A model generated the notes under the pieces. That model was given only the letters and a program-made list of their open reading frames with translations, made no database searches and was not told the origin of the DNA. DNA of 64,000 nucleotides from Polytrichum commune (Eukaryota > Streptophyta > Polytrichopsida > Polytrichales > Polytrichaceae): NCBI GenBank assembly GCA_950295325.1, contig OX485807.1:50870440-50934439 (forward strand), written 5' to 3'. How positions within the stretch are numbered: the stretch's first letter is position 1; every line of letters starts with the position of its first letter. Positions 15,214 to 47,312 of this stretch are shown in pieces. The position numbers and the translations under genes were made by a program.

Positions 15214-16266
15214 ATTTATGCACCTCTTGGTATTTTTTCCCTCCCTATTTGTAGATATAAAGCTACTTTGACGTATTTTTTAGCACCCTATATTTATTTG
15301 TAATTTTTTAGAGAGACCAATTTTTGGCATCATATTTTTTTTATAAATCGTACAAGTACCAAATAATGAACGGAATACTATAACATTGCAAAATCAACTA
15401 TGTGATCAACAAACGTTCCACACCATCCATCTTATCATTTAATCGGTTTCAATTAGTTATGCCAATGCTAAAGCATTCAAAGTGCCATTCAAAACACAAC
15501 CAATAACACTTGGAGTTTAGTTAAAAGATTACCAATGAACATGGAGATAACAAAATGTACAAGCTAACATAAACAAGTTATAAACATGCATAGAACAAAA
15601 CAAGGATTATAATCAATTGTTATAAGACATGAAATTTTGCATAATTATCTATTTCAAAACAAAAGATTGCATTCAATTGAAAAAAAAAATACAAAATTGA
15701 AAACATTTACTTTAATTGTGTTCACAAACACATTCAACCTTGTACCAAATATTTACAATGTGAAGGGTTAGCATATAACTATGCACCCTCCAATGCATGT
15801 CAAGGTACATATCGATATCCTCTACAATGTCATGATAAGACAAAATATTTTGGAGAGGTTTAACACCAATGATGACAAATAACTAAAACTAATTGTTGGC
15901 ATGAGGCGGGCAACCTTCGAAGTCTCCAACCACTCCATCACGTATCCTCCAAGGCAAAGCGCAATCCTCCGAGTCTACCATGGTGAGGTGCCAAATGTTG
16001 TAGCGCATCATCGATCATCTACAAAAGGTTGTTGTAGCAAAAAGGCAATGAATAGAATGTTGGCATATTAGACACTACTAGCAAGACAAGTAAAACTAAT
16101 AACAAAAATTTATGAGGAATGAACTATATTCCAATCTTAATTCTCATAATTTCATGGCTTGAAAACTAGGTTTTTTGAGTTAGAGAATTGAACATGCTCA
16201 TTCAAAAATCTATACAAGACCAAACAACAAGAAAATGTGCAAATTCAAGATTTAGGAAAGCATAAA
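15214..16266. other. No gene recognised
   Basis: AT-rich DNA between the transposase-like gene and the left end of element 1. No coding frame or structural RNA recognised. Confidence 0.45.
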
Positions 16267-16796
16267 ACACTATATTCGTTAAATTGAGACTTTCTCTAGT
16301 CTCAAATTAATATATGGATCAAACAACATTCCGTGTTCCGAAACTATATTGCGAACAATCTCAAATATATTATATGTTCTAATATCCCAAATCTATTATG
16401 TGTGGACATAAGCACATATGGTAGAGCACTCAACACCAACTTCATCAACAAAAACACTTTGGGTAGAGCACTCCAAACTAGTTTCATCCAATAAACATAT
16501 AAAATGGTTTATATTATTAGCATGGTCAATAAAATATAGACATTGCAACATACAAAGTGCATGCAATAAATGCATTTTTCTTCAATGGACAATTTAGTCC
16601 CAAACTTAATAAAAAAATGAACTTCACATTTGTATTGAAATATAGTAAATGAATATTCATCCAACCCCAAACAATATAGCATTCGCAAGTTCTACCCAAA
16701 CTTTGCCCCAAGTTTGAGGAGCACACATATGAGTAATATATATTCGTCGAATTACATATTACACTATAATCATGCTAACACAATCCTACCAACTTC

Positions 16797-19700
16797 TCAT
16801 TTAACGTGGGTTGCTTCTTCTGCGATCCGAGCAAGGTTGTCTTTTGCAAAAGTTATGTACTTTTGAGGGATGGACACCGATCCACTATGATTTTTCCGTG
16901 GTTTCCATGCTATGAATATGGAATCTGTATCTATCCAAGATGGACCATGCTCAGAATCCACCTTCCACCGAAAGTTAGGGTTTGTATCCCAGCCTGTATA
17001 ATGCCGAACAACATCTTCATTCCGTGATGTCGGTCGGTAGTACTCTACTTGTATTTGTCGAAAATGAGGGCTGGAAATTACAAAATTTGGTTTGGACAAA
17101 GCTCTTGCCACCCACACTGGCTTTGCATATGTCTCATCTCCAGGACGCAAAATGAGCATATAACCTTCATGACAATCCACTGCAATGCGGAAAGATGGTG
17201 GCGGACGACTACTAGCAGGCCCCACGTAATGGTCGTCCACATCAAACTCCTCTCGAACCTCTCCATTTCCCAAAAGACTAGCCTCCGAAGCTTGTACATT
17301 GACACGTGTTTGTGGCCAAAACCCATGCCTTAAAGTAAGGGGTGTATCTTCATGAAGGTTTGCCAAAGCGCCACGAACACGTGTCCAATATTGTATCCAA
17401 CTTCCGTAACGAAGCCAACACGATCCACCAACATCCGCTACCCTCAAACTCTCCCAATATTGTATGAAGCCTGATATGCCTTTACAAATGTCCTCCAAAT
17501 TCTTCATGGGTATTGGTTTGCAAGGCTTAGGCTCTCCGTCAGGCAACATCGTCCTTCCTTCCCCATCAACACGCCATACAAGGAGACCCTCCGGCGGGCT
17601 CCAGTCTTGTGATGTGCACAACAACTTGTATTGCATGGCGGGGACACCATCGTCACGCACGTAGAACCGAAATTGTTGTGCCTTCGTATGCCCGATCAAT
17701 CGGTGAGCTCCGCTTCGAATATACGGTTCTATAAATGCCTTGAAATCTGGAACCTCCTCAATCATATGTGGGATGACGGGAATGTTCTCCAAATCCATGT
17801 ACGACTTCATCAACAATGGGATTGTTGGAAAATCCTCCTCGCGCAACTTCATGCTCCACCGCCCAAAGGACGCATCAATATCATCGTGCGTGTGGCCTAC
17901 CAATAGAAAGGACACAAAAACCTCCTTGAAAATGCCTTTCGCAACCAACAACGACCAATATGCAAAAACATATCTACTTTTATTGTCCTTCGCACAATTG
18001 TCCAATTGGACACGCAGAGTTGGGGGCAAATTCTTGGCAATCACATCTTCACTTGGTGGCTCCGGCAATGAGTGCACGCATACATCTCTTCCATCCAAGA
18101 CCGCTTCATATAGAGGTGTTGATCCCGAGTTTTCAAATAGCAATCTTGATGAATAGGACGGCGGTTTCTCCAAATCACGTAAAAGCTTTGCAAATGACCC
18201 TATCGTGTGGTTTGAATCCCCCGGATACAAATCAAGAGCATAATGAGCATACTTGACATCTCCATGCCCATGTGCAATCATTCCTGCAAAGGCAACCCAA
18301 TGGTTTAATATTCAACTATAACACCAAAAAATTCACATGGTGTACATGTATGGCCCCAAGTACAAACCTAAACGCACAAATTTGTGTTTAGGTAATGCAA
18401 TGCAATTGTTATCAAAATCACCTGTAACCGAAACAGGAAGCTTAAAAAGGCCGTCCGTGGCTTTTATTCGATTTGCAAAACATGGTGAGGCTGTTTTGGC
18501 ATGGTCCATTTTGTCATGGATGATTGTAAGGACTTCCAAAGGCCTGGAGATGGACAAAGCTCTATTTGTGTAGTAATCATTACGGTGTGCCTCTTGCATG
18601 TTCACATGCTTGAAATAGTTCATTTGATGTGCGGCATAGGACTCTGTCCCCATCGTGTGTGCATCTCGAAGGCGTTTCAACTTCTCGCATTTGGAACAAC
18701 GGGCAAATTTGTCGCCTCGTCTTTTTGTGATGTATTCGCTAAAGTGAGATTTTTTGATAGCACTCAGTTTCGACAACGAAATAGGGTCCAACCCGGCCTT
18801 CTCGCCAACTGCGTTTACGTCCAACAATATGTCTTTCCATTTCGTGCCTGTAGGAAGAACCTTCTCCACAACCTTTTCACCGGTTGTGAGTGTCCGTGTT
18901 TTGTGCGGCATTGCATCGGCAAGGGGGACAATGATGGTTGCCAGAGTGGCTGTTGCTTGTCTCGTTGCTTCTCTTGGTTTCTTTAAGCCCGTGTTCCCAT
19001 GGTGACGGGCACGGCGGCCTTCATTGGCATACGCGGCTTGTCTATAAAATTCCGCTTTCGACACACCGTGAATGGTGTACCATGCCGTACAACACACGTC
19101 TATGCTCTCAAGGGTGATGACCTTGCGACCCGCTCCGTTCACATGTATCGCCCTATGGACATCAAGTTTTTTGGTGGATCTTAGACGGAAATCTCCAAGC
19201 CACATTTCTTCACGGATGGCCTTCAATTTATCTCTTGGGAACAATTGGCAACAACGATGTACACAACAATCCTTCGTAGCAACTTCTCTAATAGACTCCT
19301 CACAGAGCAACCTTTGACGTTTACACTTATTTGCAGACGGAGTAGGACGTGTCAATGTTTCGTACTTCCGAAGGCCTTTGCGTGGCCGAATGTTTGCTTG
19401 GAGCTCCTGTTGGATTTGGACGTGTCGTCGCTCATGGTCGCGCAAACTAACCCCCTCAATTGTCACATTCCTCAACGGCCACCTTCGCAACGAGAACCTA
19501 TGAGTTGGATTGACTTCCGAATGTACAAGTGATTCTAATATAACAACTCCAACGTCCTCGGTGCCAAGGGAGTGTTCATCAATGCAATCTTGTGGATGTG
19601 TGTTACGACAAATACCCTCCGCCACAGCAACTCCACTGTCATTAACAAGTACCACATCCAAATTCACCCATGAAGCTCGTGAAAGCCCCGCACATTCCAC

Positions 19701-19886
19701 AATGGGGCAAAAAGGGTCAGATGGCGAAGGACTCCCCAAATGACCTTCATCTGCACTGTCATCAAAACTATCCTCCCCGACAATGTCTAGCTCATCCCCA
19801 GACAGAGATTGGGTGCTGCCCATGTCTTCAGAGAAGGAATCCCCTCTTCCACCAACTCCCTCCATTGCGCCTACACAAATGCACAT
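16797..19886 (-). CDS. DUF7869-like transposase (2 exons)
   Basis: Proposed model: exon 1 from 19886 to 18368 and exon 2 from 18283 to 16797, joined by a GT-AG intron in matching phase, up to 1001 residues. The start may be the later ATG at 19865, because TTTGTGTAG just before it could be a splice acceptor. Order of parts: an acidic N-terminus, a Cys/His cluster near CCVHRCCQLF, a second cysteine pair (CSKCEKL), then HDKMDHAK, and in exon 2 QLDNCAKDNKSRYVFAYW and VGHTHDDIDASFG. The last two motifs are hallmarks of proteins I know as DUF7869. The D...DN...GHTHxDID layout looks like an RNase H-fold catalytic triad, so I infer a transposase. The gene lies next to the left end of element 1, as expected for its mobilising enzyme. 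The frame is open throughout. Confidence 0.65.
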
Positions 19887-20066
19887 GAAACCTCAACAAA
19901 CATGGACACAACGTAAGGGTCCAAAAAAATCAAATATTGGAAAATGCAAAACATCACGATAAATGGGGACACTGAGGATCAAGACATTTGCAACACAAAT
20001 GCAATGTGAGCTCCCAATACTATGCGCCAGTCCACAAAATGTTCCACAAAATATTTTGGGTGGGAG

Positions 20067-21172
20067 TTTGGGTCGGCCGACCTAAACCCTGTGGCACCAG
20101 GGATTGAGGGCCATCCACACCTTGCCCGTGGGATAGGGTCGGGTTCCGGTCGACCGACTCAAACCTTGTACAATGATGGGTTGAGGGCCATTTAGAATTC
20201 CATCACGCTGTGGGGAAAATTTTGGGTCGACCGACCCAATCTTTGACGGGGTTAATCCACCCACACTGGATAGGGGTTTGGGTCGGTCGACCCAAACTTT
20301 CACAGGCTAAATCCATCCACACTGGGAAGGGGTTTGGGTCGACCGACCCAAACTTTCACAGGGTAAACCCACCACACTCGGAAGGGGTTTGGGTCGGTCG
20401 ACCCAAACTTTCACAGGGTAAGTCCACCCACACTGGGAAAGGGTTTGGGTCGGTCGACCCAAACTTTCACAGTGTAAATCCACCCACACTGGGATGAGGT
20501 TTGGGTCGCTCGACCCAAACATTACATATGATGGGATAAGGTTCCTACTCTGTCCGTCCAAACCTTCTGAGTACCTTGGGTAAGGGCCATTAACAATTCG
20601 TTCACGATGTGCGAAAAAGTTTGGGTCGACCGACCCAAACCTTCTGAAAGGTTTTACGATAAACGCCCATAGTGGGGTAGGGGTTTGGGTCGACCGACCC
20701 AAATCTCAGAAGGGTCAGACTAGACCCCCCCCCCCAACACTAGTGAGGGGGTTTGGGTCGACCGACCCAAACCTCACAAGGGTCAGACTAGACCCCCCCC
20801 CCCCCCCAAACACTAGTGAAGGGGTTTGGGTCGACCGACCCAAACCTCACAAGGGTCAGACTAGACCCCCCCCCAACACTAGTGAAGGGGTTTGGGTCGA
20901 CCGACCCAAACCTCACAAGGGTCAGACTAGACCCCCCCCCAACACTAGTGAAGGGGTTTGGGTCGATCGACCCAAACCTCACAAGGGTCAGGCTAGACCC
21001 CCCCCCCCAACACTAGTGAAGGGGTTTGGGTCGACCGACCCAAACCTCACAAGGGTGAGACTAGAACCCGCCCACACTAGTGGAGGGGTTTGGGTCGATC
21101 GACCCAAACCTCAGAATGGTCAGACTAGAACCCGCCCACACTAGTGGAGGGGTTTGGGTCGACCGACCCAAA
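20067..21172. repeat. Palindrome array A: 17 copies of TTTGGGTCG-N2-CGACCCAAA
   Basis: A 20-bp near-palindrome recurs 17 times starting at 20067, 20144, 20221, 20277, 20333, 20388, 20444, 20500, 20620, 20684, 20752, 20825, 20891, 20957, 21025, 21089 and 21153. The commonest form is TTTGGGTCGACCGACCCAAA. The two centre bases vary (AC, GT, AT, CT, GC), while the 9-base arms are kept except in the first two copies. Two tandem series are visible: about 56-base units from 20221 to 20519, and 64-73-base units from 20684 with poly-C runs and CACTAGTG. The array starts 180 bases upstream of the transposase start, so it could be the promoter or a protein-binding array. Long open frames across it are by-products of the repeat. 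Confidence 0.9.
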
Positions 21173-22029
21173 CCTCACAAGGGTCAGACTGAAACCCGCC
21201 AACACTAGTGTCGACCGACGTATAATACAGCGTATAATGCGGCGTATAATGCAACGGATATTGAGAGGTGTGTGGAATTTCATCTCATTGCAAAGTTCAC
21301 TGCGGACTTGCATGCTGTGAATAGGTCCTCATGAACAACAGCGTGAACGAACCTCGAAGTACAGCTCCGACTAAGAGTTCTCTCTACGAATTCAGGAGTG
21401 GAAGAAGAGCAAAAAAGAACCAACTTTTGGGGGGTGCGCCCCTTTATACTATCCACCTCCACTTGCCCGACTTCCTCATTGGATGCCTTTCCCGCCTTCT
21501 TATTTCAAACCTCCTGACATAATTCCCCGTTTTCTGTTTATTGTAGAAAATGCGCATCTTTCAATGCCCCTCTCATACCCCAGCCGTCATATGTCTTAGT
21601 CTATAATATTTAATATTTTTTTGGTTTTGTGTGTATATGACATACGACATTGGGAGGAAGGGTGGCGGCCACATTAATTTTTTCAAGTGTCACAACGGTA
21701 TATTTTAACCAATATGTATACCCAACCACAACTCCATTCAATGCTTTCAAGTGCAAACCTATTTAGGTGGGGTTGGGGCCATTTGGAGGTTGCAATTATG
21801 AGAGAGTTTCCAAGGCTTGAGGCCATTGTCATGATGAATAAAATTATTTATTTGTCTCCCCTAAACCCTAAACCCTAGAACATTGCGGCTCTGTTATCTC
21901 GCATGGAAGTGTAGCAATGATAAACGTATGTGGACGTTGTTAAGGGGATACTAACTAGCAATGTCGCTTTTTGGTTCAATCTTTTAATGTTATTTCAATC
22001 CATCCTCAAGTTCACTTCAAGTTTACTAA

Positions 22030-22880
22030 TGTGTGTGACCAAAACATCCAAAGTTGGACCCTAAACCCTTATAACATCCACAACATGAAATACGTATTGA
22101 CAAAATACAAAACCAATTAGTATATCATGTTTAAACGTCCCAAATAACATATTAACATGATCAAGATTGTATTTACTATAACCTTCCTATTAGACTCTTC
22201 TTCATATTATGCAAACAATATCTGTTATATCTTTCTCCATTATCCAATACATGTGGAGGGAACAATGAATAAGAACATGATTGCGTGAATGGCTTCATTT
22301 GATGTTGTGCTTCTCTTATTTACTTTTGCATCACATTCCATATATTAAATACATCATGAACCATGGTTTATTGGCAACTATGTGATTCCCTAAAGTGAGC
22401 AAAACATCCAAAGTTGAACCCCTTACCCCTAATAACATCCACAACATTTCATGTTATTTGAATAAACACAAGACCATTCACTATATCACGTTTAAACGTC
22501 CGTAATAACAAATAAACATAATCAAGATCGTCTTTTCTATTACCTTCCAGTAAAAACCTATTCTCACCAGTAAGTCAATGTTATATGTTAATATTGGATA
22601 GATTAATATGTTATAAACCTAACTCCTAAACCCTAAACCCTAAACCCTAAATACAAAAATTCGTAGTTGTTCACTGCTACCTCCACATACAAACAACATG
22701 AACTTTATCTTGCGCCATTATGTAATATACGTGGAGGGAACATTCAATAACAACATGATTGCGTCAAAGGGCTTCATTTGATGTTGTGGTTCTCCGATTT
22801 ACTTTTATATCACATTCGAAGTACATATATCACGATCCATGGTTTATTGGCGACTATGTGATTCATTCAAGTGAGTATGT
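22030..22880. repeat. Diverged tandem duplication
   Basis: CAAAACATCCAAAGTTG followed by CCTAAACCC/CCTTACCCC and TAACATCCACAACAT occurs near 22040 and again near 22404. GGCTTCATTTGATGTTGTG, then ACCATGGTTTATTGGC, occurs near 22290-22380 and again near 22770-22860. This is an imperfect duplication with a period of roughly 370-480 bases, without coding content. Confidence 0.65.
22624..22651. repeat. Interstitial telomere-type repeat
   Basis: Nearly four units of CCCTAAA, the plant telomere repeat read on this strand. A shorter tract lies near 21860-21879. They are too short to mark a chromosome end. Confidence 0.8.
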
Positions 22881-23308
22881 AAGGGATTTACTAAAAACTT
22901 GAGCATGTTAGCATTTCGACATAAGGATCATGCAATTCCAAACCCTGAGAAAATGCTCTTGGGGAAGGTATACATTTAGCAAACACATTCAAATATCCTA
23001 AATTTCCGAATTTCATGTTGGGGGACGGGGGTTATATTTTTTATTCATTGCATATTGTGTGAGTTCTTGGCATCATTGGTAAAGTCTAAATGTCAACGAT
23101 TACATCGTTAAATGTCACGCAATTGTATTATTTTTCTAACTTGCTCAAACAAAAGAGAAACCAATGATTTCAACTTGTTTGGGAAATTTAGGTTATGGTG
23201 TCATGTGAGTAGGGGTTAAGTCTTAGTTTTAGCATAACGTTGCGTTGTAAAAATGCATTAGTTGTATAAATGGTTTCATTTTGTAGAATACCGCATTTGA
23301 TGTGCACC

Positions 23309-23845
23309 TTATGGGGCATTCCCACTTGACATTAGTTAGAAGTAGTATTAGTCTAAATGCGGTTTTAGTTATCTAGGTTTCACACATATGGCTCTTTTTA
23401 GTGCCGAGCCTAGGTGGCAAATGATGTGGCATGGCTTAAAAGTGGAGGTTTTAAGCCTCAACCACCGACGCTCCCATCGGTACCTAAACATTAGGCAAGA
23501 ATATAGGAATTTTAAAAGTGTCGCCTCCCACCCTTGTGATTGGTTGCTTTTTAGTCTTAGCTATGAGGGCACGAGGAGCTTCATTAACAAAAACCGATGG
23601 TAAGATAGGTGAGTAGTAAGGCATTTGGGGATGGGACAAAAACTACCCAACATTCATTGCTTGGTAGATAAAACCATGAACATGTGTGAAAGCTACTTAA
23701 CTAAAACCTACTTGAAAATCTCCGGAGCAAGTTCTTGTAGGTGCATTGGGATAGTTGGATGCCTCCGCTATAACCGAGGGAGCTTTACCCGGTCTTTATA
23801 AAATAGTGAGGGTCTTAACTAAAGTCAAGTGGGAATGCCCCATTA
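23309..23845. mobile_element. Tourist-like miniature element, TSD TTA
   Basis: The 531-bp element 23312-23842 starts TGGGGCATTCCCACTTGAC and ends with its exact complement GTCAAGTGGGAATGCCCCA. The trinucleotide TTA flanks both sides (23309-23311 and 23843-23845). TTA duplication and GGGGCATTCC-type ends are the signature of PIF/Harbinger-derived Tourist elements. No transposase is coded. It is inserted within element 1, upstream of the ParB-like gene. Confidence 0.85.
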
Positions 23846-23899
23846 GGGTACTCCAAAGTGTCTTGAAAATACTAATGCCCGCTAAGGGTTTACAGTTTG

Positions 23900-24756
23900 G
23901 CTTTAGGATTTAGGGTTCCCCGTAATCCTAATTCCGTTGGTGCCCTAATCCCGTTGGCACCCTATTCGTGCGGTTGGGGGCCAATTCCCGAGGCATACAA
24001 AACCCCAGCCGTCACAACTTTTCGCTCTTTCTCTCTCTCTCCGCGCCAAGCATTCGCTCCGCGCCTCTTGTGGAAGCGCCGCCTCTCCTGAAGCGCCGCT
24101 TTCGCGAAGCGCCGTGGCGATTCAGGGTGGCGATTTTCTTCTCTTCCCTCCCTTCTTGTTGCTTTGGCGCCTACTGATTCTTCTCCTTCCCTCCCTTCTC
24201 TTGCTGTAGAAGTTAGGAAGTGTTTGCAATAGAACAGAAACCTAAGGAGAGAGTTTTAGAGTGCGTGAGAGTTAGTAGAGTGATTGTTGTAGAGTGAAGT
24301 AAGTAGAAGATTGTTGAAGGGTTTTCCAACATTCTAAGCTTGCGGGTTTTGGAGGCTGTATTGTAGTTGGAGAGTTTGTGAGATTTAGGAGTTCTATAAG
24401 ATAATCAGGAGGTGTTTGAGAGATACAAAAGTCATTTGAGAGAGTCAGTCATTGTTTTGAGAGATTCACTTGTTCTTAGGGATTCAGAGGTTGTTTGAAA
24501 CACTCAATTGTTGTTTGAGAGATATCTAAGTCATTTGAGAGAGTCAGTTATTGTTTTGAGAGATTCACTTGTTCTTAGAGATTCAGAGGTTGTTTGAAGT
24601 ATTGAATTGTTGTTTGAGAGATTCAAAAGAGATCTAGGAGTTGTATGAGAGATTGTGGATTTGTGTGAGAGGTTACATTCAACTGTTTCTGTGTTATTGG
24701 AAGAAGAACACCTGTTCTAAAGCAACTGTTTACAACAACTGCTACATACAACAAAG
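23900..24756 (+). promoter_or_regulatory. Probable promoter and 5' leader of the ParB-like gene
   Basis: A GC-rich block with CT repeats (24025-24130) is followed by a long GAGAG/TTGTTTGAGAG-rich leader with about two copies of a roughly 97-base repeat (24430-24620). ACAACAAAG|GTATTTTC at about 24757 fits a splice donor, and TTTTCTTACAG just before the ATG at 25461 fits its acceptor. I infer a 5'-UTR exon and an intron that holds palindrome array B. The transcription start is not placed. Confidence 0.45.
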
Positions 24757-24876
24757 GTATTTTCTTTTATTATATGCAATAAGTGTTTGTCAATTGAAGG
24801 TATTGTAGCATACACAACGCATAAGCATTGTATATGCTACGTGCCAACTTTTAAAAATTACATTAAAATAGGAAAG

Positions 24877-25433
24877 TTTGGGGAGACGACCCAAACACGG
24901 CCACAGGTTTGGGTCGGTCGACCCAAACACAGCCTCTTGTTTGGGTCGACCGACCCAAACACAGCCTCTTGTTTGGGTCGACCGACCCAAACACAAAACA
25001 AAGCATCATGTTTGGGTCGACCGACCCAAACACAGCCTCTTGTTTGGGTCGACCGACCCAAACACAAAACAAAGCATCATGTTTGGGCCGAACGACCCAA
25101 ACACAGCCTCTTGTTTGGGTCGACCGACCCAAACACAAAACAAAGCATCATGTTTGGGCCGAACGACCCAAACAACGTCTTCTAATTATAAACTCATAAA
25201 GAAATCCATGATTTTTGCATCAATATAAAATTCACATCCACTAAAAAATAATAATCAAGGAATGTATCAAGGAAAAGTATCAAGTAATCCTGCATGTCAC
25301 AAACAATATAAAATGCAAATCCACCCAATAATCAAAACATTCTTATTATCAATACAAATGATGCTGAAATATATAAATATACAATCCACCTAAACCTATT
25401 CATGTCGTAGATGTTTGGGTCGAACGACCGAAA
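24877..25433. repeat. Palindrome array B (10 copies) in the presumed 5'-UTR intron
   Basis: Copies start near 24877 (degenerate), 24908, 24940, 24972, 25011, 25043, 25082, 25114, 25153 and 25414. Spacers alternate between short ACAGCCTCTTG and longer ACAAAACAAAGCATCATG pieces. Three copies carry an AACG variant in place of ACCG at the centre. The whole array lies between the presumed splice donor at 24757 and the acceptor before 25461. Confidence 0.85.
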
Positions 25434-25460
25434 CTAACATTGCACATTATTTTCTTACAG

Positions 25461-28400
25461 ATGGCTCCAAAGAAAAGACCCGGCGAAAGGTGGTTCATGC
25501 CTGCGCCGGACATGTTGTGGCAGGAGCACGAAACCCCGCAGGATGACTCCTATTCCCCTAAGGACGGGCTTGTCCTCGCGTGGTCTATACAAGTGGTTAA
25601 GGGTTCGCAATACAAAATGATTTTTGTTGTGAAGGTTGGGACCGTGGAGAAGCACACATGGGCTACTCTTACGGGGTGGGAGGTGGCATCGGTTCAGTCT
25701 CTTGGAGACTACGTGGATGTCATCCTCGAGAACAACGCTGTCCAGAACGCGCATATGTTTATGCACCAGTTCTCCGAACCCTTTGACGCTATCTATGCAA
25801 AAGAAACATGTGTAGAACCAGACGTCATCAAACCGGAGTCCATATTCATCGATAACAGTACATCGAACACAAAGGTGTCGAGCAGATTCACGAAACTAAA
25901 GCATGCAATCAGCGTGCTCAACAAAGCCCTGCAGAGCAAAACCAAGTCTCAGCAACCCGTGAGGCGGAAAGCAACCACAGAGGAAGGAGCAGGGTCGTCA
26001 AGATCTCAATCGGTGAGGAAGCCGCGACCAGTACCGGCTGACTCGCGGAGGACCACTCCCTCCCAAACACCTGCGGATAGCGAGACGCCTACACCTTCTG
26101 GGAGCCGTCAAACAACTCCATCCAAGAGGGGGAGAGAGTCATCTGTGATGACTGACGAGCCAGTTTCACCGGAGTTGCGCATGCCGAAGCCCGGCGAAGA
26201 GGTGGATGCAGGGGAGCTGCAGAAAATCGTGAACAATTTCACGACGAAATGCTCCCACTGTTTTTTCATGGGCAGGGATTTTAAGTTCGACGTGAACATC
26301 AGCCAGTGCCATCTAGCGCCACCGGAGAAGTGTGTCCGGGCAAAGGAGGACGCCTACGTTGACTGGATAATCGCGCAGATCGTTTGCGAGCAGTTTAAAG
26401 ACGACAGGCAAACGATAGTAGTGATGCCACAGGGTCTCAAGAAAATGCCTACACCTGAAATGTGGCCCACAATTCAGAAGGGCGATTTTTGGCTCATAGA
26501 CGGCCAGCACAGCGTGGAGGCATCCAAGAAAATCCAACTCATGAATGAGTGGGATGATCCGAACAATCAGAAGGAAAAACTGAAGGTTTGGAAGGCACTA
26601 GTGGTGTGGTCTGACGACGAGACCAAGCTCAGCGACATCTCCCGGTACTTCAATATGGGAAATAAGAAGAGGGCCTACCAAGCTTCCTGGATAAGGAATA
26701 TCATGGCCTCGCGGGAGGTGTGGGAGTTCTATGGTAGGCCTCCCAAGGAGAGGGAGAATGCGAAGGACAAGAATCCCAAATGGGAGGTGAGTATTGTTTA
26801 GGTCGACCGACCCAAACTCCTGATGCAGCCTTGTTTATTTAGTTTGGGTCGACCGACCCAAACTCCTGATGCAGCTAGTTTATTTAGTTTGGGTCGACCG
26901 ACCCAAACTCCTGATGCAGCTAGTTTATTTAGTTTGGGTCGATCGACCCAAACTGTTGTTGCAGATGTTGGTCATGATATGGGTTGGAAATCACATGTAC
27001 ATATCTAACACGCATTCAAATGTTCTGTTTTGTGGACGTGCAGGATTTCAAATACCAAATGATCAACAAATTCTCCTCCATTGATAATTCGAGCCACAAG
27101 CAGAAGAAATACAGCGACCTCAAGGGGGAGATTTACTTGATTACAGCATCTGACTCAGTTTGGAGGAAGTGGAAAACCGTGTTTGAAAAGCACGAGACGG
27201 GGGATTTGATCGACCCCGACACTGGCATTTTCTTCAGCCAAACCTCGCGCTTCAAGCAGATGAAGCCTCTCGTGAGAGAGTTCTTTAGAACTCTTCAAGG
27301 GCTGTCAGAGACGGAGGTGGAGAAGGCGGCATCTCACATCCTGCACGTGGCACCCACGGCGAAGAGGTGTTGGGTGCACCCGAAGATTGTCTTCCAAAAG
27401 CCCAAATCCTTCGTTCCTTCATGCTACACCATGAAGGAATGGACGGATAACAGGAAAAAGAAGACGACTATCGTGCAGGAGCTGCATAAACTAGTGCCAG
27501 AGAGGAATATTGTCGTGGACGGCGAGGTCCATGAGGCTAACTGGAGAGCATTCAAAGCTGAATATAAGTTCACCAGTGCCTCCATGGCGGCTCTAATAAG
27601 GGAAGCGGGGGACAACTTCTTGCGGGCCAAGATGGTGAAGGGTGGGAAGAACCGGGCGCTTCCGGATCACACAGCGCGTGCGTTCTCGAACTTCATCAAG
27701 GAGAAGAAGATTGTCCAGTTTGAAGGGGAAGCGTACTTCAACCTTGTCACCGCCGACCCGTTGAAAATTCAGGGCTGGCCAGGTCAAGACGCCAGAATGG
27801 CGATAAGGACGAAAGCAAGGGACCGCTTTCCTTTTGGGATGATTGATTTCAGGAATATTCCTGGAAGCTCATTTGAGGGCACGATGAGCACCCTCTTCTA
27901 TGACCCCTTCCTATCTAAGTTCGTCGATTATGCAAGCCCTAAGTTCAGGGAGGTAGATATCTGGCTTTGGATAGTCGAGGATAGGAGGGCGGAGCAGGTG
28001 TACGAGCTTGTCCGGAAACTGCAGCCGGAGTATGCAGTCTCCAAGTCTCACTACATCGCCGCACCGGCGGAGGGAGCTTACACGACGTTGAGGGACAAGA
28101 AGACCAAGTTCGTCAACGTCTTGTGTTTGTACTTCGTGTACAAAGCGGAGTTGCTGAAGGTGCCGAACCACCCTATATCCCGGATGGACAAACTCTTCCA
28201 AGTTCCAGAAGGGTTGGGTGTCAACAAGTGCCTCTACGACGAGGCTAAATACGCGAACTATCCTTTAGATGAGCTGCGGATGGAATTTTACGTGAGAATG
28301 ATGAGGACGCTGACGAGGAGAGGGGATTGCATCTTCAACGTCTTCGGAGGCTCTAAACCTATCTATGTTGCCATGGTAAGCGACTTTCTATAACTCGTGC

Positions 28401-30088
28401 GCAGTTTGGGTCGATCGACCCAAACTAGGCTCTGTGTTGGTTTGGGTCGATCGACCCAAACTAGGCTCTTTGTTGGTTTGGGTCGATCGACCCAAACTAG
28501 TCTCTTTGTTGGTTTGGGTCGATCGACCCAAACTACACATTGTACTTGGTCTTGTTTATGTCCCTCGCCTAATTCTAATGTCTATATAACTTGGATTGTG
28601 TAGATGTCGGGGCTGAGTATATACTCCTACATAGAGGATGGCGATCTGCCATTTTACAGGACGCAGAGATCGTTGGCGAAGACGATGGACATCCTCGATT
28701 GGATCCCGGGTAGCTACGTCGACGAGGTTGTTCAGGGGGGCGAAAACCCTCTTGATAGGGTGAGGCGGATCAACCCGGAAGAAATGGCCATGAGGGCCAC
28801 AACCCAAGAACCCGAACCTCTTGTCGGGTTGCATCCGGGCAATCCGTCCCGCACAGAAGGTGGCGATGTCGAGGAGGAGGAGGAAGAAGAGGAGCACGAG
28901 GAGGCGGAGAAGGAAGGCGACGTGGAGGAAGGGGCAACGGGCTTCACGCAAGAATCCGAAGCCCCTCAACGGAAGAAGGCGATGCGGGCGGCAACCCCGC
29001 AGAGTAAGCTCGTGCCCGTCCTGACGGTGGACGATGCACGGGACATGTACTCCAGGGACGCGACCGCCACGTTCAGGGAGAGGAGGAAGATGAAGGGGAA
29101 GAAGCTGTATGGCGACTACTCCGTGGAGGAGACCATTGCCATAAGCAGCGAGGACGACGATGACATTGAGCTCGCCAAACGGCTAAGATCAGATCCCCCG
29201 TCCCCGACAGCGTTCGCTGGCATGGTTAGGGTGAAGCCCGAGGTCCTGACTGTGGAGGAGGCGAACGAGAAGATGAGGAGGGACGAGGAGCAGCGAGTCC
29301 GCCTGCAGAAGGCTGCCGCGGAAGAACCCTCAATGCGGAACGAGGTAGCAGAGCTAAGGGCTCTCGTGTTGGAGTAGGAACGACAGAGGGCGATGGCCCA
29401 ACCTCCGTCCCACGCCGAATTGATATCACAAGTGATACAAGGAATGTGGGCGCAAGGTTTGGTGGTGGCTCCCTCCAGCTCCTTCCCGCACTTGCCCCCC
29501 GGCTTCCCTCCGCAGAGCATCCCTCAGCAGCCTGTGCCGCAATCGTCTTTCAGCTTCCAGCACTTGATTCGGCCCCACCAAGTTCCGTACGCGCCGGTCC
29601 AGCAAGTGGATGACCCCAACATCTGGCGCGTCTCTGGAGCCTCCTCCCCTTTGGGCCCTCCACCACTTCGGCCCCCGATAGTCATGGCGCCCCCTCACCA
29701 ATCGGACGACCCCAGGATGTTTGGGTCGACCGACCCAAACCCACCATCCACTGGAGTGTCCGAAAGGCCCTCTCCAGATGCAGGACAGTTTGGGTCGCCC
29801 GACCCAAACCCCGTTGCAGTGCAGTCCTCCCTTGACCAACATGGGTGTCAACTAGACACGGCCATGCTAGATGTTGAAGGCTTGCAAGGGCCTGGTGATA
29901 CCTCTACTCCTAACCAAATCGATGAACCCATGCATGATGCAAATGCGGAGATTGGTTTAGGACAAGGGCCTGATGCCGATCGTTTGCAGGAGAAGGTTCC
30001 TGACGTCGTCGGAGAAGGCGGTGGCGAGAGAGGCGGGGCAGCGGGGACGGTGGAGGCTTCCACATCGTCGAGACATGACCAGGGCGAG
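25461..30088 (+). CDS. ParB-like / degenerate DNA methyltransferase-like protein
   Basis: Proposed exons: 25461-26786, 27044-28375 and 28604-30088, all GT-AG and phase 0; a further short 3' exon after 30089 is possible. Residues about 300-440 hold a ParB/DGQHR-like domain with WLIDGQHSVEASKKI (D347-S351). C-terminally, RRGDCIFNVFGGSKP (N at about 874) followed by VAMMSGLSIYSYIED matches the order of motif I and the next strand of beta-class N4/N6 DNA methyltransferases. The usual DPF-GSG is changed, and no DPPY-type motif IV is seen (WIVEDRR stands in the expected place), so catalysis is doubtful. An acidic and coiled-coil region follows. An in-frame TAG at 29375-29377 interrupts exon 4; the frame then continues 237 codons. 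The gene is visibly GC-richer than its surroundings. ParB-MTase fusions are known from phages and bacteria; this assignment is by motif reading only. Confidence 0.55.
26797..26952. repeat. Palindrome cluster in intron 26787-27043 (4 copies)
   Basis: Copies start at 26797 (first arm TTTAGGTCG), 26843, 26888 and 26933, each followed by an AACTCCTGATGCAG-type spacer. The last has an AT centre and is a perfect palindrome. All lie inside the intron that splits the ParB-like domain from the rest of the protein. Confidence 0.9.
28405..28532. repeat. Palindrome cluster in intron 28376-28603 (4 copies)
   Basis: Four copies start at 28405, 28441, 28477 and 28513, exactly 36 bases apart. All have the AT centre, TTTGGGTCGATCGACCCAAA, so every copy is a perfect 20-bp palindrome. 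The intron splits the methyltransferase-like motif I region. Confidence 0.9.
29720..29808 (+). repeat. Two palindromes inside coding sequence
   Basis: Copies at 29720-29739 (AC centre) and 29789-29808 (CC centre) lie in frame in the distal part of exon 4 and code for FGSTDPN and FGSPDPN. They fall after the in-frame TAG. Confidence 0.85.
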
Positions 30089-30111
30089 GTAATACACTGA
30101 GCCCTCCCCAG

Positions 30112-30131
30112 TTTGAGTCGACCGACCCAAA
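30112..30131. repeat. Single palindrome downstream of exon 4
   Basis: TTTGAGTCGACCGACCCAAA, one mismatch from the common form, lies 24 bases after the GT donor at 30089, again in presumed intron or 3' flank. Confidence 0.85.
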
Positions 30132-30546
30132 CTTGCTGGGTCATTGTCTTGTTGGCGTGGTCGTGTCCCCCTTGCTAGGAGGAAATGCACACCCCCTGCC
30201 CCCCATGCTCTACACTTGCTCCCCCTCCCCCCAACGTGCCCCCCCGCGATCCCCTTCGTCTCACCTGCACTCGACTATGCTCGACCTTGGCGGCGCGCAA
30301 CCAATTTTGTAGATGTAGAATTAGGATAGTGTGAATGCCCTCGTTCACCGCAGTCCCCCCCCCCCAATCAAATTGTACATAGAGATTTGTAAAAATAAAA
30401 TTATTATTTTTGGCGCCCATATGTTTGCATCCGTGTCCCAATGTATGTTGTTCCCCTTGTATGTTTTTGTTGCCACCAATGGTCCAATTCTTCTTGTGTT
30501 TGCACAAAATTTCCGTTCTGCTTGAGATGGACATAACATAACATAG

Positions 30547-31392
30547 TCCTCGTCCGCCTTCTCTCGCTCGTCGCCGCAAGGTTCGGAGCATAGCGTCGCA
30601 GCTCCCCACCGATCCTCTCCGAGGAGTGTGGAGGACAGCGCGGTGGTCCCCCCGATTTTGCCCTCGCCACCTTCGCCTCCCAAGACCCGGTTCCTGGTGC
30701 TAGACCTCAACGGGGTCCTTGTCCAGTGCGTGCATTGTCCGAGGGTCCCCACGGTGCCTTTCTGCAAGCCCGAGGACGCCAACTACGATGGTCCCCCCGC
30801 GTACATCAAAAGCAAGCTAGTGTACCTCCGCCCGTGGCTTCGGCGCTTCCTGCAGGTCGCCCTATCCAAATGGTGGGTGATCGTGTGGAGCTCCATGAAG
30901 TCCGAGAACACCCAGGCCGTCGTGGAGTTCATCTTCAAGGGACTCCAACCCCCGTGCTTGGTCCTAGGACAGGACTCTTGTAGAACGTTATACACCCCCG
31001 AGGGCAGGGTTGTGAAAAAGCCCAACAACCCCGCCGTAAACCAATTTCTTAAGGTCTTGAAGCCAGTCGTATGGGACCAGCGTCCGACCATGGTCGGCTG
31101 TCCCTACGACGTTCGCCCCACCCGTGACAACACGTTGATGGTGGACGACAGCGCTTCCAAAAACATTTTGAACCCGACCTCGAACTTCATAGTTTGCCCC
31201 ACGTGGACGGTCGAGAAGGTCCGAGACCGCTTTTTGTTAGACCTACTTAAATACATTCAAACGCTCGTGGGGAGCGGACTACCCGTGCCCCGGTTCCTTA
31301 GTTGTAATCCGATAGGCGAAAGATACATGGATCCGAAGGACTATATGTACAGAGAGTTGTACGCTCACGCGAAATATAATAAACTCATTTGA
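30547..31392 (+). CDS. FCP1/SCP-type HAD phosphatase-like protein
   Basis: The open frame runs from 30547 (after a stop) to the TGA at 31390-31392. RFLVLDLNGVL corresponds to HAD motif I (DxDGT/V), but its second acidic residue, the acid/base Asp, is Asn. VIVWSSM fits motif II, and NTLMVDDS fits the final acidic motif. This order and spacing match FCP1/SCP (NIF-type) phosphatases, which act on phosphoserines such as those of the RNA polymerase II tail. There is no in-frame ATG before motif I (30628 is GTG), so the start must lie in an upstream exon, or the copy is broken. It sits inside element 1 between the ParB-like and lysine-rich genes, and a related fragment lies at 47313. Activity is uncertain. 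Confidence 0.6.
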   Translation, partial: SSSAFSRSSPQGSEHSVAAPHRSSPRSVEDSAVVPPILPSPPSPPKTRFLVLDLNGVLVQCVHCPRVPTVPFCKPEDANYDGPPAYIKSKLVYLRPWLRRFLQVALSKWWVIVWSSMKSENTQAVVEFIFKGLQPPCLVLGQDSCRTLYTPEGRVVKKPNNPAVNQFLKVLKPVVWDQRPTMVGCPYDVRPTRDNTLMVDDSASKNILNPTSNFIVCPTWTVEKVRDRFLLDLLKYIQTLVGSGLPVPRFLSCNPIGERYMDPKDYMYRELYAHAKYNKLI

Positions 31393-33616
31393 GATACTAC
31401 ATGGTGTGCCATTGTGTGTGATATATTATGCCTCAATTGTATATCGATTTTCACATGCTCCCCCCTCCCCCCCTGTGAGGCCAAACCCCCCACCCTTAAG
31501 CGTCCGTAGTCCGAGTAGTGGGTTTGGGCTCACATTCCTCCGCGGTATTGGATTTGGACTTGGATGAGTCCATAGTGCAAGGTTCACCCTTCAAGTGGTC
31601 TTGGATTTAACTGGAATTTCACTTTTAACAACTCAATGTACGATTTCAATACGTATGTGGAGAATGCACAAATTAACTATGTTATTTTAACCTCCTTATG
31701 CTCGGGTGCTATTTTGTCTTTGTTTGCTTCTAACGTCCATCCGGCTGCTTTAGCTACACAAGCCCTTAAGGATATCCCTCTCCTAAATGGAGTCCGTGCC
31801 GTTGACTCTATACTACCACTTGAACTATCACTTGTGTATTCCGTATCGCTACTATAAGAGGTCTCACTTGGTGTCTCCATACCGTACATAAGCCTTTAAG
31901 TATTAAGAAATACTTATGTGACTTATGTCAATCTCTCCCTCGCACCTTTGGTCTTTGCTTCCTTTGTCTTGCCATCGCAAGAGTGCTCCACATTCTCCAT
32001 TAAGTTGTGCACGTGGTTTATTTTTAAAGAGAGGATGCAAGTGTTAAAAAAAAACACTATTCTCTATAGTCAATCTCAAATACATTTACTTGTGAAAGCC
32101 ACACATAACACTAACTAGCATAATGTAACTAACTACTTGTCTATGAGCTAATTAGGTAGGCTATCTACTAAGCTCCTTCATGAACCCATCTCTTTACTTT
32201 CTAATTACATAAACCTAGCTCCTTCATAAACCCAGCTCCTTCATAAACCCAGCTTCTTAGCTTCTAACTAAACAAACCCAGCTCCTTCATAAACCCAGCT
32301 CCTTCATGAACCCAGCTCCTTAGCTTCTAACTAAACAAACCCAGGTCCTTCATAAACCCAGCTCTTTACTTTCTAACTAAACAAACCCAGCTCCTTCATA
32401 AACCCAGCTCCTTCATGAACCCACAACTTTGTAGTTGTAATCCCCAACTACCTCACTAATTATTCAAGCCCTTAACTAATCTTCCTACCTAATTTCCCTA
32501 ATTCTACTAACAACCCCTTTCTAATCACACAATTCTTCTCTAATCCTAAAATCCTAAAATCCTAGAGAGGAGAGGGGGAGAGAGAATTTCCTAACTTCAC
32601 TAAGACTAACTAATCCACACAAGTATATTTTTGCACTCATCACAACATCAAGTGCTCAACTCTTAAACATGGAACTTGCAACCACGTGTATTCAAAACAT
32701 GAACTTTAAGTACCACAAATTGGAATCATGAATTAACTTTAAAATCCTTCACGTCAACACTAATTCTACCAAGAGGTCAAGCCCTCTTCAAGGCTAACAA
32801 GCCTTGGCTCTCAAACTAAAAACTAAGCACACACATGTGCTCCAATATGGCTTCCCACACCCACACTTATAACTCGTGGGGTGCCTTGGAGCACAAAGGA
32901 AAGAGAGGATGAGTGAGGGAAGAATGAGGGATTATATAGTAAGCTTGAGGGGGTGAGCACCCTCAAGGCTCACGATAAGCCCTTGAGATTTCCTCCTACT
33001 TAGTAGGCGCCAATCCTATCTTCTAAGTCTTCCTCCCTCAAATGATCAACAAGGATCCTAATTCGAACATTTAACTAGCCTTGGCTTTCTACCTACCACA
33101 CTTTACCAAACTTGGGATGCTTCAACCCAAACTTAGCCTCCTTCGCTTTCCGCCGCCATAACTTTCTCCCCTTACTTTCCCAAATCGTCGCTCACCACTT
33201 AATTCAAACCACGATGCTTAACTCGTGATTTGATTGGTGCTTTGAGAATTTGCTTATCCTCCACCTTGCATTCTTCCTTGGGCCTTCCCCATTAAGTGGC
33301 CATGATGAGGTGGTCCACTTGTGCGCTCCATGTGATCCTCCATTCATCCCAATTCGAATGCACTTGCCTCTTGAGTCACTTTGGTTGTCTCCATCCATTT
33401 GTACTAGCCTACTCACTAACTACTCAATCCAAGTTCTCCTTACCTATCCTCATTCACTCAAATCCTTCCGAAGGTAAAAACACAATAACAACTCACATCC
33501 TAGCCTCTTACAACATGGTACTTCTAAGACTAACATTTCACTCTTTTTATATTTTTGTGAAGTAACATGCTACTTCAAAGTGCATCAACTAACGTTTCAA
33601 GGGTCTAAGACTAAAT
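31393..33616. other. No gene recognised between the FCP1-like and lysine-rich genes
   Basis: Low-GC, pyrimidine-rich DNA without credible coding. In element 2 the phosphatase and lysine-rich pieces lie almost side by side, so part of this 2.2 kb could be a later insertion; I found no clear ends. Confidence 0.4.
32177..32422. repeat. Minisatellite
   Basis: AACCCAGCTCCTTCATAA/TGA is repeated about ten times, with interspersed TTCTAACTAAACA pieces. It is non-coding. Confidence 0.8.
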
Positions 33617-34483
33617 GTGGGCACCCTTTTGGGCTCACACCCCCTCCCCTTGGGTTTTGTTTTGTTTCCTTTTTTGCGCCAGCGTTTGGAGCCCTCGATT
33701 GAGATCGTCAGCGAATCAAACTTGGGGAGCTTCTTCTACGAGACCGTCTACGATGCCGCGTCCACCATCGACTACTCCAAGGAGCCTATCGACGCCGGCG
33801 TCGTCGATAGCCCCCCACCCAAGCAAATCTTCCGGCCATCTCCGTCCCCGTCGCCGCTCAAGGGCATAAATCGCAAATGCGTCCGGACGTCCCCGTCTCG
33901 GCCCGGCGGCAGTAGTACACCTCAACGGCGGCTGCGGATGGACGCTCGGCCTACGAAGAGTGGCACCCTTCCTATTCCTTTGCGGGACGCATTGCCCCTC
34001 CTCGCCGACTCCGACGGGAACGCCCCCGGTGACAAGGTGAACCCCCCCCCCCAAACATGGTTAACCGCGCATTACAATCATCCGGCACTTAAAAAATGAA
34101 CGTGTGACACGTTTGGGTCTTCCTCCCTAAACTAACACGTGTGTTCTTGCATTGACGCGTTGCAGGTTGCTCCCACCCGTAAACCTATGCGGGCTAGTGC
34201 GTCCGTCGAGTTGGAGCGTTTCTACTCCATGACCAGAAATGCAAGACAGTCCACTTCATCGTATTCGAATTCTTCGTCGTATAATTCGGGCGGCCGACGG
34301 AATCCAAAATGTGTTTTTGATGGCGGTCACCCCAAGAATGGCTATAGTCGCGGGGCGGAGATTTTCAGGAATGTTGAAGCAATGCGAGCAAAAGAAGCCG
34401 CAGCAAAAGAAAAAGAGGCAAAAGAAAAAGAGGCAAAAGAAAAAAAAAAGCAAAAGAAAATGAAGCAAAAGAAAAAGAGGTAG
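33617..34483 (+). CDS. Small lysine-rich protein of element 1
   Basis: Proposed exons: 33683 (after the acceptor TTTTTGCGCCAG; an in-frame ATG exists at 33617) to 34036, and 34166 to 34483, phase 0. The first exon is Ser/Pro-rich. The second starts VAPTRK, has SSYNSGGR and GYSRGAEIFRNVEA, and ends in a KE/K-rich tail (AAAKEKEAKEKEAKEK) that could be a coiled coil or a nuclear signal. I do not recognise a family. The second exon has a diverged relative at 47724-48091 in element 2, which supports real coding (VAP start, SYNSGAR, GYSCGPEIF). It is the last gene before the right end of the element. Confidence 0.5.
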
Positions 34484-34654
34484 TCTCCGAGGCTAGATAG
34501 GCCATAGTAGGCGTAGGGTTGTGGGCCATAGGCAAGAACATTTTGGGTCGCACTATCCAATGGATGTGTGGTGTTAGCATGCTATGCATTTTACATGCCA
34601 CACTTTGTATGTTTTTTTTGCAATAATATAAGTGTCACATGATTTCCCCTTCCA

Positions 34655-34880
34655 TATGGTCTAAGGTTTGGATTGCCCTACCTAAACCATCACAAATATG
34701 AGTTTGGAATATTTTGTATGTTATATTATATTGGTTCACATATTTCCCCTTCAATATGATCTATGGTTTGGATTGCCCTACCTAAACCATATTCATACAA
34801 GTTTTTGTGCGATAATATGAATGTTTTAAGATTTCCCCTTCAACTTGGCCTAAGGTTTGGATTGCCCACCCTAAACAATC
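34655..34880. repeat. Three tandem units with an imperfect GGTTTGG...CCTAAACC palindrome
   Basis: GGTTTGGATTGCCC followed by TACCTAAACC or a close variant occurs three times (near 34664, 34767 and 34854) in units of roughly 90-100 bases with ATTTCCCCTTCAA spacers. The arms resemble a worn version of the element 1 palindrome. It lies between the lysine-rich gene and the right end of element 1. Confidence 0.65.
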
Positions 34881-35315
34881 CCAAATATGAGTTATTAATG
34901 GGGATCTTGTTCTAAACACCCGCTTCAAAGTGTTCGCATCTTACAACTTTCTCCAATATGTGTTCCATTTATCCTTGTTCTTATTTTTGTGAATGTCTCA
35001 AAATGCCCAAAAAGTCTCAATTTAACGAATATAGTGTTATAATACCTAGCTTCCTCCGAAATTGGATTGAAAGTCAACTCATCATCTTCATGCATTTGAA
35101 AAGTTTAGTACATGTTTATCACTTCAACCATCCAATGCTCATTAATAAACAACATCTTTGAATGAAGCAAGAAAATTTCATAGATTAAATAACACCTACT
35201 AACTTAGAAAAAAAATTCCACAACAATCATGCATGATTTGTACACTAGAAAGAACATTAGTCATTTTGTGATATGGGTATGGAGTAACAAACAATATCTT
35301 ACATCACTATTAATT

Positions 35316-41260: not shown

Positions 41261-41326
41261 CAACCATCATCTATGTTTGAACCAATACTACAAATGCATT
41301 GATTTGTGATTTGTGATTTATATTTG

Positions 41327-47229: not shown

Positions 47230-47251
47230 TTTACGAACGGTTGTTCGTAAA
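47230..47251. repeat. Isolated palindrome upstream of the gene remnant
   Basis: TTTACGAACG-GT-TGTTCGTAAA, one arm mismatch, lies about 60 bases before the phosphatase-like remnant. A worn half-copy lies near 47172. Confidence 0.7.
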
Positions 47252-47312
47252 TATGCTACCAAAATCTACTTTAACAATTGAATGTGGATATACTTTATAT
47301 TGTGCATAAAGT

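Follow-up and report, generated by a model that had tools for sequence, protein, structure and literature searches.

How could a large transposon tell its own copies from the rest of a genome? The question is raised by a 64,000-nucleotide stretch of DNA from the moss Polytrichum commune, called the window here (C5:50870440-50934439 of an analysed genome of 408 Mb in 64 contigs), which holds an entire DNA transposon, element 1, with a divergent pair of genes: a minus-strand DUF7869 gene, presumably for a transposase, and a plus-strand gene whose product carries the motif DGQHS (the DGQH gene and DGQH protein below). Introns and telomere-like CCCTAAA stretches agree with a plant origin. Short palindromes, or dyads, are scattered through the DGQH gene, and an array of the same dyads lies upstream of the DUF7869 gene. 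An earlier note, made from the letters of the window, had compared this arrangement with bacterial ParB proteins and their parS sites. The analysis presented here indicates that the DGQH protein likely recognises the dyads of its own family, and suggests that the element labels copies of itself and recognises them; at least four further families (F2-F5) of the same genome share the layout of element 1 (family F1), and across these five families protein and dyad change together. The dyads and the parts of the DGQH gene, with all introns and splice borders predicted from the sequence, are the following.

20066-21173, no strand: array of 17 dyads upstream of the start of the DUF7869 gene
24757-25460, plus strand: predicted 5'-UTR intron with GT-AG borders, containing nine dyads (24907-25434) plus a shortened copy at 24876; the ATG follows at 25461
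25461-26786, plus strand: exon 1 of the DGQH (tentatively ParB-like) gene, DGQHS at 26499
26787-27043, plus strand: predicted intron 1, four dyads (26796-26953)
27044-28375, plus strand: exon 2
28376-28603, plus strand: predicted intron 2, four dyads (28404-28533)
28604-30100, plus strand: exon 3, with two in-frame dyads (29719 and 29788) and one in-frame stop (29375-29377)
30111-30132, no strand: dyad directly 3' of exon 3

A scan of the whole window with the F1 consensus (GTTTGGGTCG-nn-CGACCCAAAC, with one of three centres; at least 19 of 22 matches) revealed 37 sites, all within 20066-30132; 17 compose the upstream array and 20 lie in 24907-30132 (9 + 4 + 4 + 2 + 1). The earlier note had listed 17 palindromes upstream, which the scan recovers, and 21 near-identical 20-bp palindromes in the presumed 5'-UTR intron, two further introns, the last exon and just downstream; the places are the same in the scan, the introns being predictions, and the number corresponds to the 20 sites plus the shortened copy (24876-24896), but the unit is 22 bp long, not 20. 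Information content falls at both edges of this unit and at its two central bases, which gives a 10+2+10 plan. Three degenerate extra sites, with 17 of 22 matches, are found at 34111, 34666 and 34766. The exact F1 22-mer occurs 3607 times in the genome and the reversed-pattern control does not occur at all; no F1 sites were found in the 36,074 bp of the window outside elements 1 and 2 (element 2 being a second transposon of the window), nor in five Markov resamples of four locus sets, so the dyads are clearly non-random. The repeat units of the element 1 arrays measure 32/39, 36, 45, 56 or 64-73 bp depending on location, with a constant dyad, unconserved flanks and sharp borders of conservation, and near-identical element copies vary in dyad number (5-9 in the 5' array and 3-6 in intron 1 among eight copies, the window copy included).

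The DGQH gene itself appears, from its predicted structure, to be real in outline. Its three exons are open and have GT-AG borders, and the sole interruption is the stop at 29375-29377; this stop is missing from all five other copies inspected, so the window copy is damaged and the others are open. At least 95 scored genome matches to exon 1, 92-100% identical, were obtained from 1135 candidates, and the DUF7869 gene has at least 87 scored copies from 1867 candidates, both counts being lower bounds.

The evidence that carries the recognition reading comes from the related elements, namely eight loci fetched after a search for the DUF7869 family, which scored 150 of 1491 candidates, and the element hosting a copy at C7:2.29 Mb; among the eight, L020, L021 and L025 belong to F4, L024 to F3 and L027 to F5, and L022 is an F4-like copy with one site at two mismatches. 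The F2 gene (L019) is 34-38% identical to that of F1 across three blocks, and its dyad is TTTACGAACG-nn-CGTTCGTAAA. The F3 gene (L024, L029, L032) is 42% identical to F2 and 30% to F1, with the dyad TTTACGGACG-nn-CGTCCGTAAA; L032 and L033 are open, and L024 carries a frame shift. F4 (L020, L028, L296; 23% to F1, E 9.65e-21) has the motif NGQHT and the dyad CCCACGGGTG-nn-CACCCGTGGG, its DGQH gene being located beyond the first 10 kb of the locus, and F5 (L027, L034; 27.7% to F1 over 119 residues, E 0.002) has DGQHV and GGGTGAGGCA-nn-TGCCTCACCC. With up to three mismatches allowed, the own-locus dyad counts are 37, 17, 25, 15 and 25 for F1 to F5, and the foreign-dyad counts between families are zero, save for cross-matches (10 and 20) between the sister families F2 and F3; the half-sites of F2 and F3 are one base apart, and those of F1 and F2 differ at five of ten positions. 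At the same threshold, none of the five dyads occurs in the window beyond elements 1 and 2 or in the five Markov resamples. In all five families one array stands 5' of the DUF7869 gene and another ahead of the DGQH gene; F1, F2, F3 and F4 have further dyads within predicted DGQH introns. All five dyads can be read as 10+2+10, with the centre least constrained in F1, F2 and F4.

The identity of the DGQH cores is 43-53% among F1-F3, 22-23% to F4 and 17-20% to F5; the DUF7869 proteins are more conserved between families (62-78%, 41-44% and 22-25%, respectively). Half-site distance follows core protein distance (Mantel r 0.82, reached in 2 of 120 permutations, for five families of one lineage), and this co-variation is suggestive. 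The genome search for matched gene and palindrome that the earlier note had proposed thus turned up a protein and a dyad changing together across five families.

The VANC/VANDAL elements of Arabidopsis are the closest parallel that has been studied by experiment. According to PMC5735166, tandem repeats of their motif stand upstream of VANA21, the transposase gene, and in introns of both VANC21 and VANB21; VANC21 binds its motif specifically, protein and motif change jointly between related families, and the copy number of the tandem repeats changes fast. This anti-silencing system is also described in PMC10398659. The DGQH elements resemble it in the placement of motif repeats in the protein's own introns and upstream of the transposase gene, in the joint divergence of protein and motif among related families (here five), in the variation of dyad copy number between near-identical copies and, as with the VANDAL motif in the unrelated element AT9TSD1, in the presence of F1 dyads in an unrelated lineage (lineage X, described below). 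The parts are different: DUF1985/DUF287 mark VANC, whose motif is 9 bp long and not palindromic, in contrast to a 22-bp dyad in a DUF7869 transposon, and these domains were not among the Pfam matches of the scanned element proteins. For VANC, binding and hypomethylation have been shown, whereas the DGQH system is known here from sequence alone. It is because the anatomy so closely parallels that of VANC, with unrelated parts, that family-specific recognition of the dyads by the DGQH protein is judged likely.

On this reading, the DGQH protein is a DNA-binding factor encoded by the element and specific for the 22-bp dyad of its family, which it would probably read as a dimer, in two 10-bp half-sites about a 2-bp centre. 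Dyads occupy the presumed control regions of the divergent pair: those of the DUF7869 gene lie upstream of it, and those of the DGQH gene fall in its 5' intron and other introns. Their binding might keep the element's own copies open and transcribed despite host silencing, in the manner of VANC. Direct binding, dimerisation and activation or anti-silencing are what we infer from this arrangement; an anti-silencing or activating outcome is the best single reading and is given about an even chance, by analogy with VANC.

Several observations weigh against this account. L023, an F1-like copy, has dyads of the F1 type without a DGQH gene within 10 kb, and L026 shares the coding DNA of F5, lacks the array-bearing stretch of L027 and has no dyads that could be found. 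No dyads were seen inside the F5 DGQH gene, and the F5 site flanks are partly conserved, as in a plain tandem array. A DGQH gene outside the layout, L030, lies in a 9-kb locus in which neither any of the five dyads nor a recurring exact palindrome was found. Describing the dyad as 22 bp and 10+2+10 is partly a framing choice, since the F3 centre is constrained (CG in 23 of 28 sites), that of F5 is partly so, and conservation of the outer bases is weak in F2, F3 and F5. Since F1-F5 form one lineage and F1-F3 are close, the independent events of co-variation are few and a sample of five is small; moreover, co-variation shows merely that something in the element follows the dyad, and the DUF7869 protein diverges too.

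The rival that survives best is a self-limiting regulator: the DGQH protein would bind the dyads at both gene starts, repress the genes and so set copy number. The position 5' of the DGQH and DUF7869 genes in all five families is the usual one for feedback sites, and matched protein-dyad pairs apply equally to it; dyads in later introns, the last exon and downstream exceed the needs of promoter operators, and the many near-identical copies suggest promoted spread over restraint, neither point being decisive. Such a regulator is considered unlikely.

In En/Spm and Ac, transposon proteins bind internal repeats, and the DUF7869 gene is the other element gene common to all five families, so the dyads might be sites bound by the DUF7869 protein for transposition. 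The dyads, however, come no closer than 3.8 kb to the left end and 4.9 kb to the right end (on the right, degenerate palindromes do), dyads also occur in introns and a coding exon, and the 17 terminal left-end bases are identical between element 1 and element 2, which bears F2-type dyads, yet the F1 and F2 half-sites are those that differ at half of their positions. This makes transposase sites very unlikely. Equally improbable is a role as RNA hairpins in transcripts or as host-factor sites: 19 of the 37 element 1 dyads lie in predicted transcribed parts of the DGQH gene, but the F1 arms are constant and stay conserved as far as the two central bases; this fits a dimer on DNA, not a hairpin, whose loop needs three or more bases. 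Nor would an unchanging host factor be expected to require a dyad that differs between families.

A partition-like or tethering role (segregation of extrachromosomal intermediates or chromatin tethering), as for ParB on parS, has in its favour the DGQH motif together with clustered short palindromes, and weak matches of three of the six members to a ParB-like phage protein family. It is still less probable, given that the element is integrated, with its exon 1 matches on contigs, that no ParA-like domain was found in the four scanned element ORFs (open reading frames), and that the GERR box carried by canonical ParB is absent from the DGQH protein. Least probable of all is a functionless simple satellite spread through the element by slippage, which would account for tandem arrays of varying copy number and for the conserved flanks of the F5 arrays, but hardly for differing units around a constant dyad, sharp F1 borders and a family-specific dyad at equivalent places. 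Of the mechanisms offered in the earlier note, then, silencing escape or self-regulation fits better than segregation, and its simple-satellite and transposase-site alternatives are disfavoured.

The earlier note had also assigned the protein a ParB-like domain, and here the DGQHS motif is confirmed at 26499, but the ParB/Srx fold is not. Alignment A1, which comprises the six DGQH members (F1-F5 and L030), reads DGQHS, DGQHS, DGQHS, NGQHT, DGQHV and DGQHI at the motif, and its invariant residues are G19, V26, R41, G96, Q97, H98, A102, V130, S142, N146, R166, W169, P175 and E178. The DGQHR domain is described in PMC4619093 as having DGQHR and FxxxN; the pentapeptide is nearly invariant, and a QR pair is a further mark of the domain. 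The DGQH proteins resemble DGQHR and ParB/Srx proteins in [DN]GQH, in an invariant A four residues on and in a conserved N about 48 residues on. Two features set them apart from the DGQHR domain family (TIGR03187/PF14072): unlike in DGQHR, the fifth residue is S, T, V or I, never R, in the six members, and FxxxN is replaced by SxxxN at the presumed equivalent place (S142 and N146 being invariant). As for the QR pair, A1 has one invariant R (R41) upstream of the motif and no QR.

Searches of Pfam, NCBIfam (six pieces), PADLOC and PDB sequences with the DGQH proteins gave nothing significant and no match to a ParB model; near the motif, the top Pfam rows, DUF6551 (E 0.12) and DUF1015 (E 0.15), came from F3 alone. 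The 'ParB-like partition protein' family phrog_1033 was matched by F1 (E 0.046), F3 (E 0.0097) and F4 (E 0.12), and F2, F5 and L030 were unmatched. No DGQH relatives were found in viral contigs (L030 as query) or in prokaryote genome contigs or phages (F1 as query). For comparison, a phage set of at least 240 DGQHR loci with at least 239 motif ORFs was used, and 235 phage DGQHR proteins entered the profile comparison. A local hhalign of A1 against these 235 proteins gave a probability of 95.9% over 15 columns around the motif, and a global one 82.1% over 142 columns, with 55 control clusters at most 0.7%; with the motif masked, the match was gone, and a sequence-profile search of motif-masked phage ORFs placed 4 motif ORFs in the top 50, barely more than the 1.8 expected from their share.

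The phage DGQHR match is no proof of fold, because the local match consists of the 15 motif columns and is lost on masking; both AlphaFold 2 models are poor (pLDDT 43.9 for the protein alone and 51.1 with 21 phage sequences); and the ParB/Srx assignment, as far as the comparisons go, rests on the motif. Since the library matches are insignificant, the phage match is confined to the motif and neither DGQHR nor FxxxN is present in the expected form, 'ParB-like' remains a lead. If the lead were true, it would offer a route for short-site binding to spread across the whole element, and one may imagine a eukaryotic ParB/parS counterpart for anti-silencing, in which a ParB-fold protein loads at the dyads, spreads as a nucleotide-gated clamp and shields the copies, its specificity having shifted repeatedly as half-site and protein changed together in two lineages (F1-F5 and X). 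This elaboration is considered improbable, somewhat more so than the self-limiting regulator.

Lineage X came from a survey of F1 dyads away from the gene. The first 100 listed F1 sites, in C1:0-16.3 Mb, form 14 clusters, seven of which lie within 12 kb of a listed F1 gene or DUF7869 match (the gene lists being incomplete), compared to 0.2 expected from random placement and a maximum of 3 in 2000 trials. Of the remaining seven, six were inspected (C1:14143515 was left out): L294 contains DGQH gene DNA, L295 contains DUF7869 gene DNA, L291 contains short stretches 67-69% like the non-coding middle of element 1, and L290, L292 and L293 contain F1 dyad arrays without element 1 DNA. These three belong to repeat family X, and in each of them the array lies just upstream of a DGNHR frame, which has 153 genome matches. 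The earlier note had set a wide occurrence of the palindrome in unrelated DNA without the gene against its own proposal; such arrays do exist in form, but all three stand just upstream of a DGNHR gene.

Lineage X, a second large repeat family, is seen at L298+L290+L299 (C1:2151700-2168900). Besides F1 dyads, it contains a dyad peculiar to it, CCCTGTGCGT-nn-ACGCACAGGG, in 20 copies; written as CCCTGTGCGTnnACGCACAGGG, this dyad is readable in the form 10+2+10. The diverged copies L302 and L303 contain four and nine X dyads and no F1 dyads; L300 and L301 contain neither, other short palindromes recurring in them; and the copy L304 has four of TGTCTCGG-nn-CCGAGACA. An exon of lineage X, presumed to be fused to the DGNHR exon, matches phage DNA methyltransferases (phrog_3008, E 5e-5) and had no Pfam match. 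When used as a query with E values up to 1 allowed, it retrieved nothing from element 1, L029 (F3), L027 and L297 (F5) or L030 (F2 was left out), and matched the F4 loci at chance level (E 0.35, and E 0.042 over 21 residues); Pfam likewise gave no DNA methyltransferase domain in the scanned element proteins. The hhalign comparison of the DGNHR protein with A1 is weak (3.9%), so homology of the DGNHR and DGQH proteins is not claimed. A minus-strand ORF of lineage X shows a weak SWIM match (E 0.076).

A close published counterpart is Sola1-1_Ec32 of Ectocarpus (21.5 kb), for which PMC12477816 reports an accessory protein, ParB-like with a DNA methyltransferase, encoded opposite the transposase strand; its authors suggest that ParB-like methyltransferase proteins bind and modify their own transposon. 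Element 1 (18.8 kb) is likewise a large DNA transposon with a tentatively ParB-like gene on the strand opposite the transposase; unlike in the algal proteins, no methyltransferase domain was found in it by Pfam or with the exon of lineage X as query, a methyltransferase-like exon being present in lineage X. ParB-like proteins fused to methyltransferases in algal transposons are therefore already known from that paper, whose main text contains neither 'palindrom' nor 'binding site'. In eukaryotes, according to a survey of ParB-Srx proteins (PMC12704722), the form met most often is sulfiredoxin; the main text of the survey contains neither 'transpos' nor 'plant'. Among the papers listed by the literature searches, no title or opening of an abstract reported cognate sites for ParB-like transposon proteins, although two sources cited by PMC12477816 might do so. 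New here are the presumed cognate sites, their co-diversification with the protein and a second transposon lineage (DGNHR with a methyltransferase-like exon) with dyad arrays. Self-binding of the algal proteins was merely suggested, and here the presumed sites are visible; the DGQH-dyad system would be an independent parallel to VANC, and the five protein-site pairs, alike in geometry but not in sequence, amount to a ready-made code of specificity, which makes it directly testable how a transposon distinguishes its copies from other DNA of the genome.

The remaining features of the two transposons in the window are as follows.

16262-16265, no strand: left 4-bp target duplication, ATAA, pairing with 35039-35042
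16266-35038, no strand: element 1, an entire DNA transposon of 18.8 kb including a nested insert of 2.17 kb; homology to five other copies begins at about 16266 and ends at about 35038
16797-18281, minus strand: C-terminal part of the DUF7869 gene, presumed transposase (PF25273, E 3.4e-40)
18333-19886, minus strand: presumed N-terminal exon of the DUF7869 gene, an open frame with blastp relatives in F2-F5
30628-31392, plus strand: NIF (CTD-phosphatase-like) exon, the third gene of element 1 (PF03031, E 1.1e-13)
31474-33640, no strand: nested 2.17-kb insert, missing from all five other copies, the window copy alone among the six compared having it
35039-35042, no strand: right 4-bp target duplication
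39292-48447, no strand: element 2, with 4-bp duplication ATAT, 30 F2-type dyads and a NIF fragment

The termini of element 1 are 28-bp inverted copies of AACACTATATTCGTTAAATTGAGACTTT, and identical 4-bp flanks were found at five of six element 1 insertions, the window copy included (the exception is L015/L016); these ends and flanks uphold the earlier claim that the gene is transposon-borne. CACTA (En/Spm) transposons have ends that start with CACTA and a 3-bp target duplication, and element 1 does not match them: its ends read AACACTA, and the duplication is 4 bp, not 3. Sola transposons are described in PMC10741241 as having a 4-bp target duplication and sizes up to more than 15 kb, and as known in moss. 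Elements 1 (at five of the six insertions) and 2 share the 4-bp duplication with Sola, and the presumed transposase matches DUF7869 alone in Pfam; a literature search under the name DUF7869 found no paper. Degenerate, unequal palindromes (GTTTGGATTGCCCTACCTAAAC and similar) occur at 34111-34132 and 34666-34893, in a repeat of about 90-100 bp near the right end of element 1.

The NIF exon is also present in F3 (L029:3582-3998), F4 (L296:6085-6741) and element 2, is placed after the DGQH gene in F1, F3 and F4, and was not found in the F5 loci (F2 being outside the reach of that comparison). The catalytic motif of NIF phosphatases is DxDx; the element exon reads DLNG or DVNG at this place, so its phosphatase-like product may be inactive.

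Element 2, in which no DGQH or DUF7869 match was found, looks like a non-autonomous user of the F2 protein, judging by its dyads; it also contains 381-bp internal inverted repeats. The DGQH gene outside the layout (L030:2881-5526, in C2:44395500-44404499) is an open DGQHI frame of 882 codons with one decayed relative, L031, which, like L030, contains none of the five family dyads at up to three mismatches; the L030 frame is perhaps a host gene derived from such a transposon. Elsewhere in the window, at 8400-9887, an open frame shows a RING finger match (E 7e-4) that falls under the curated cut-off.

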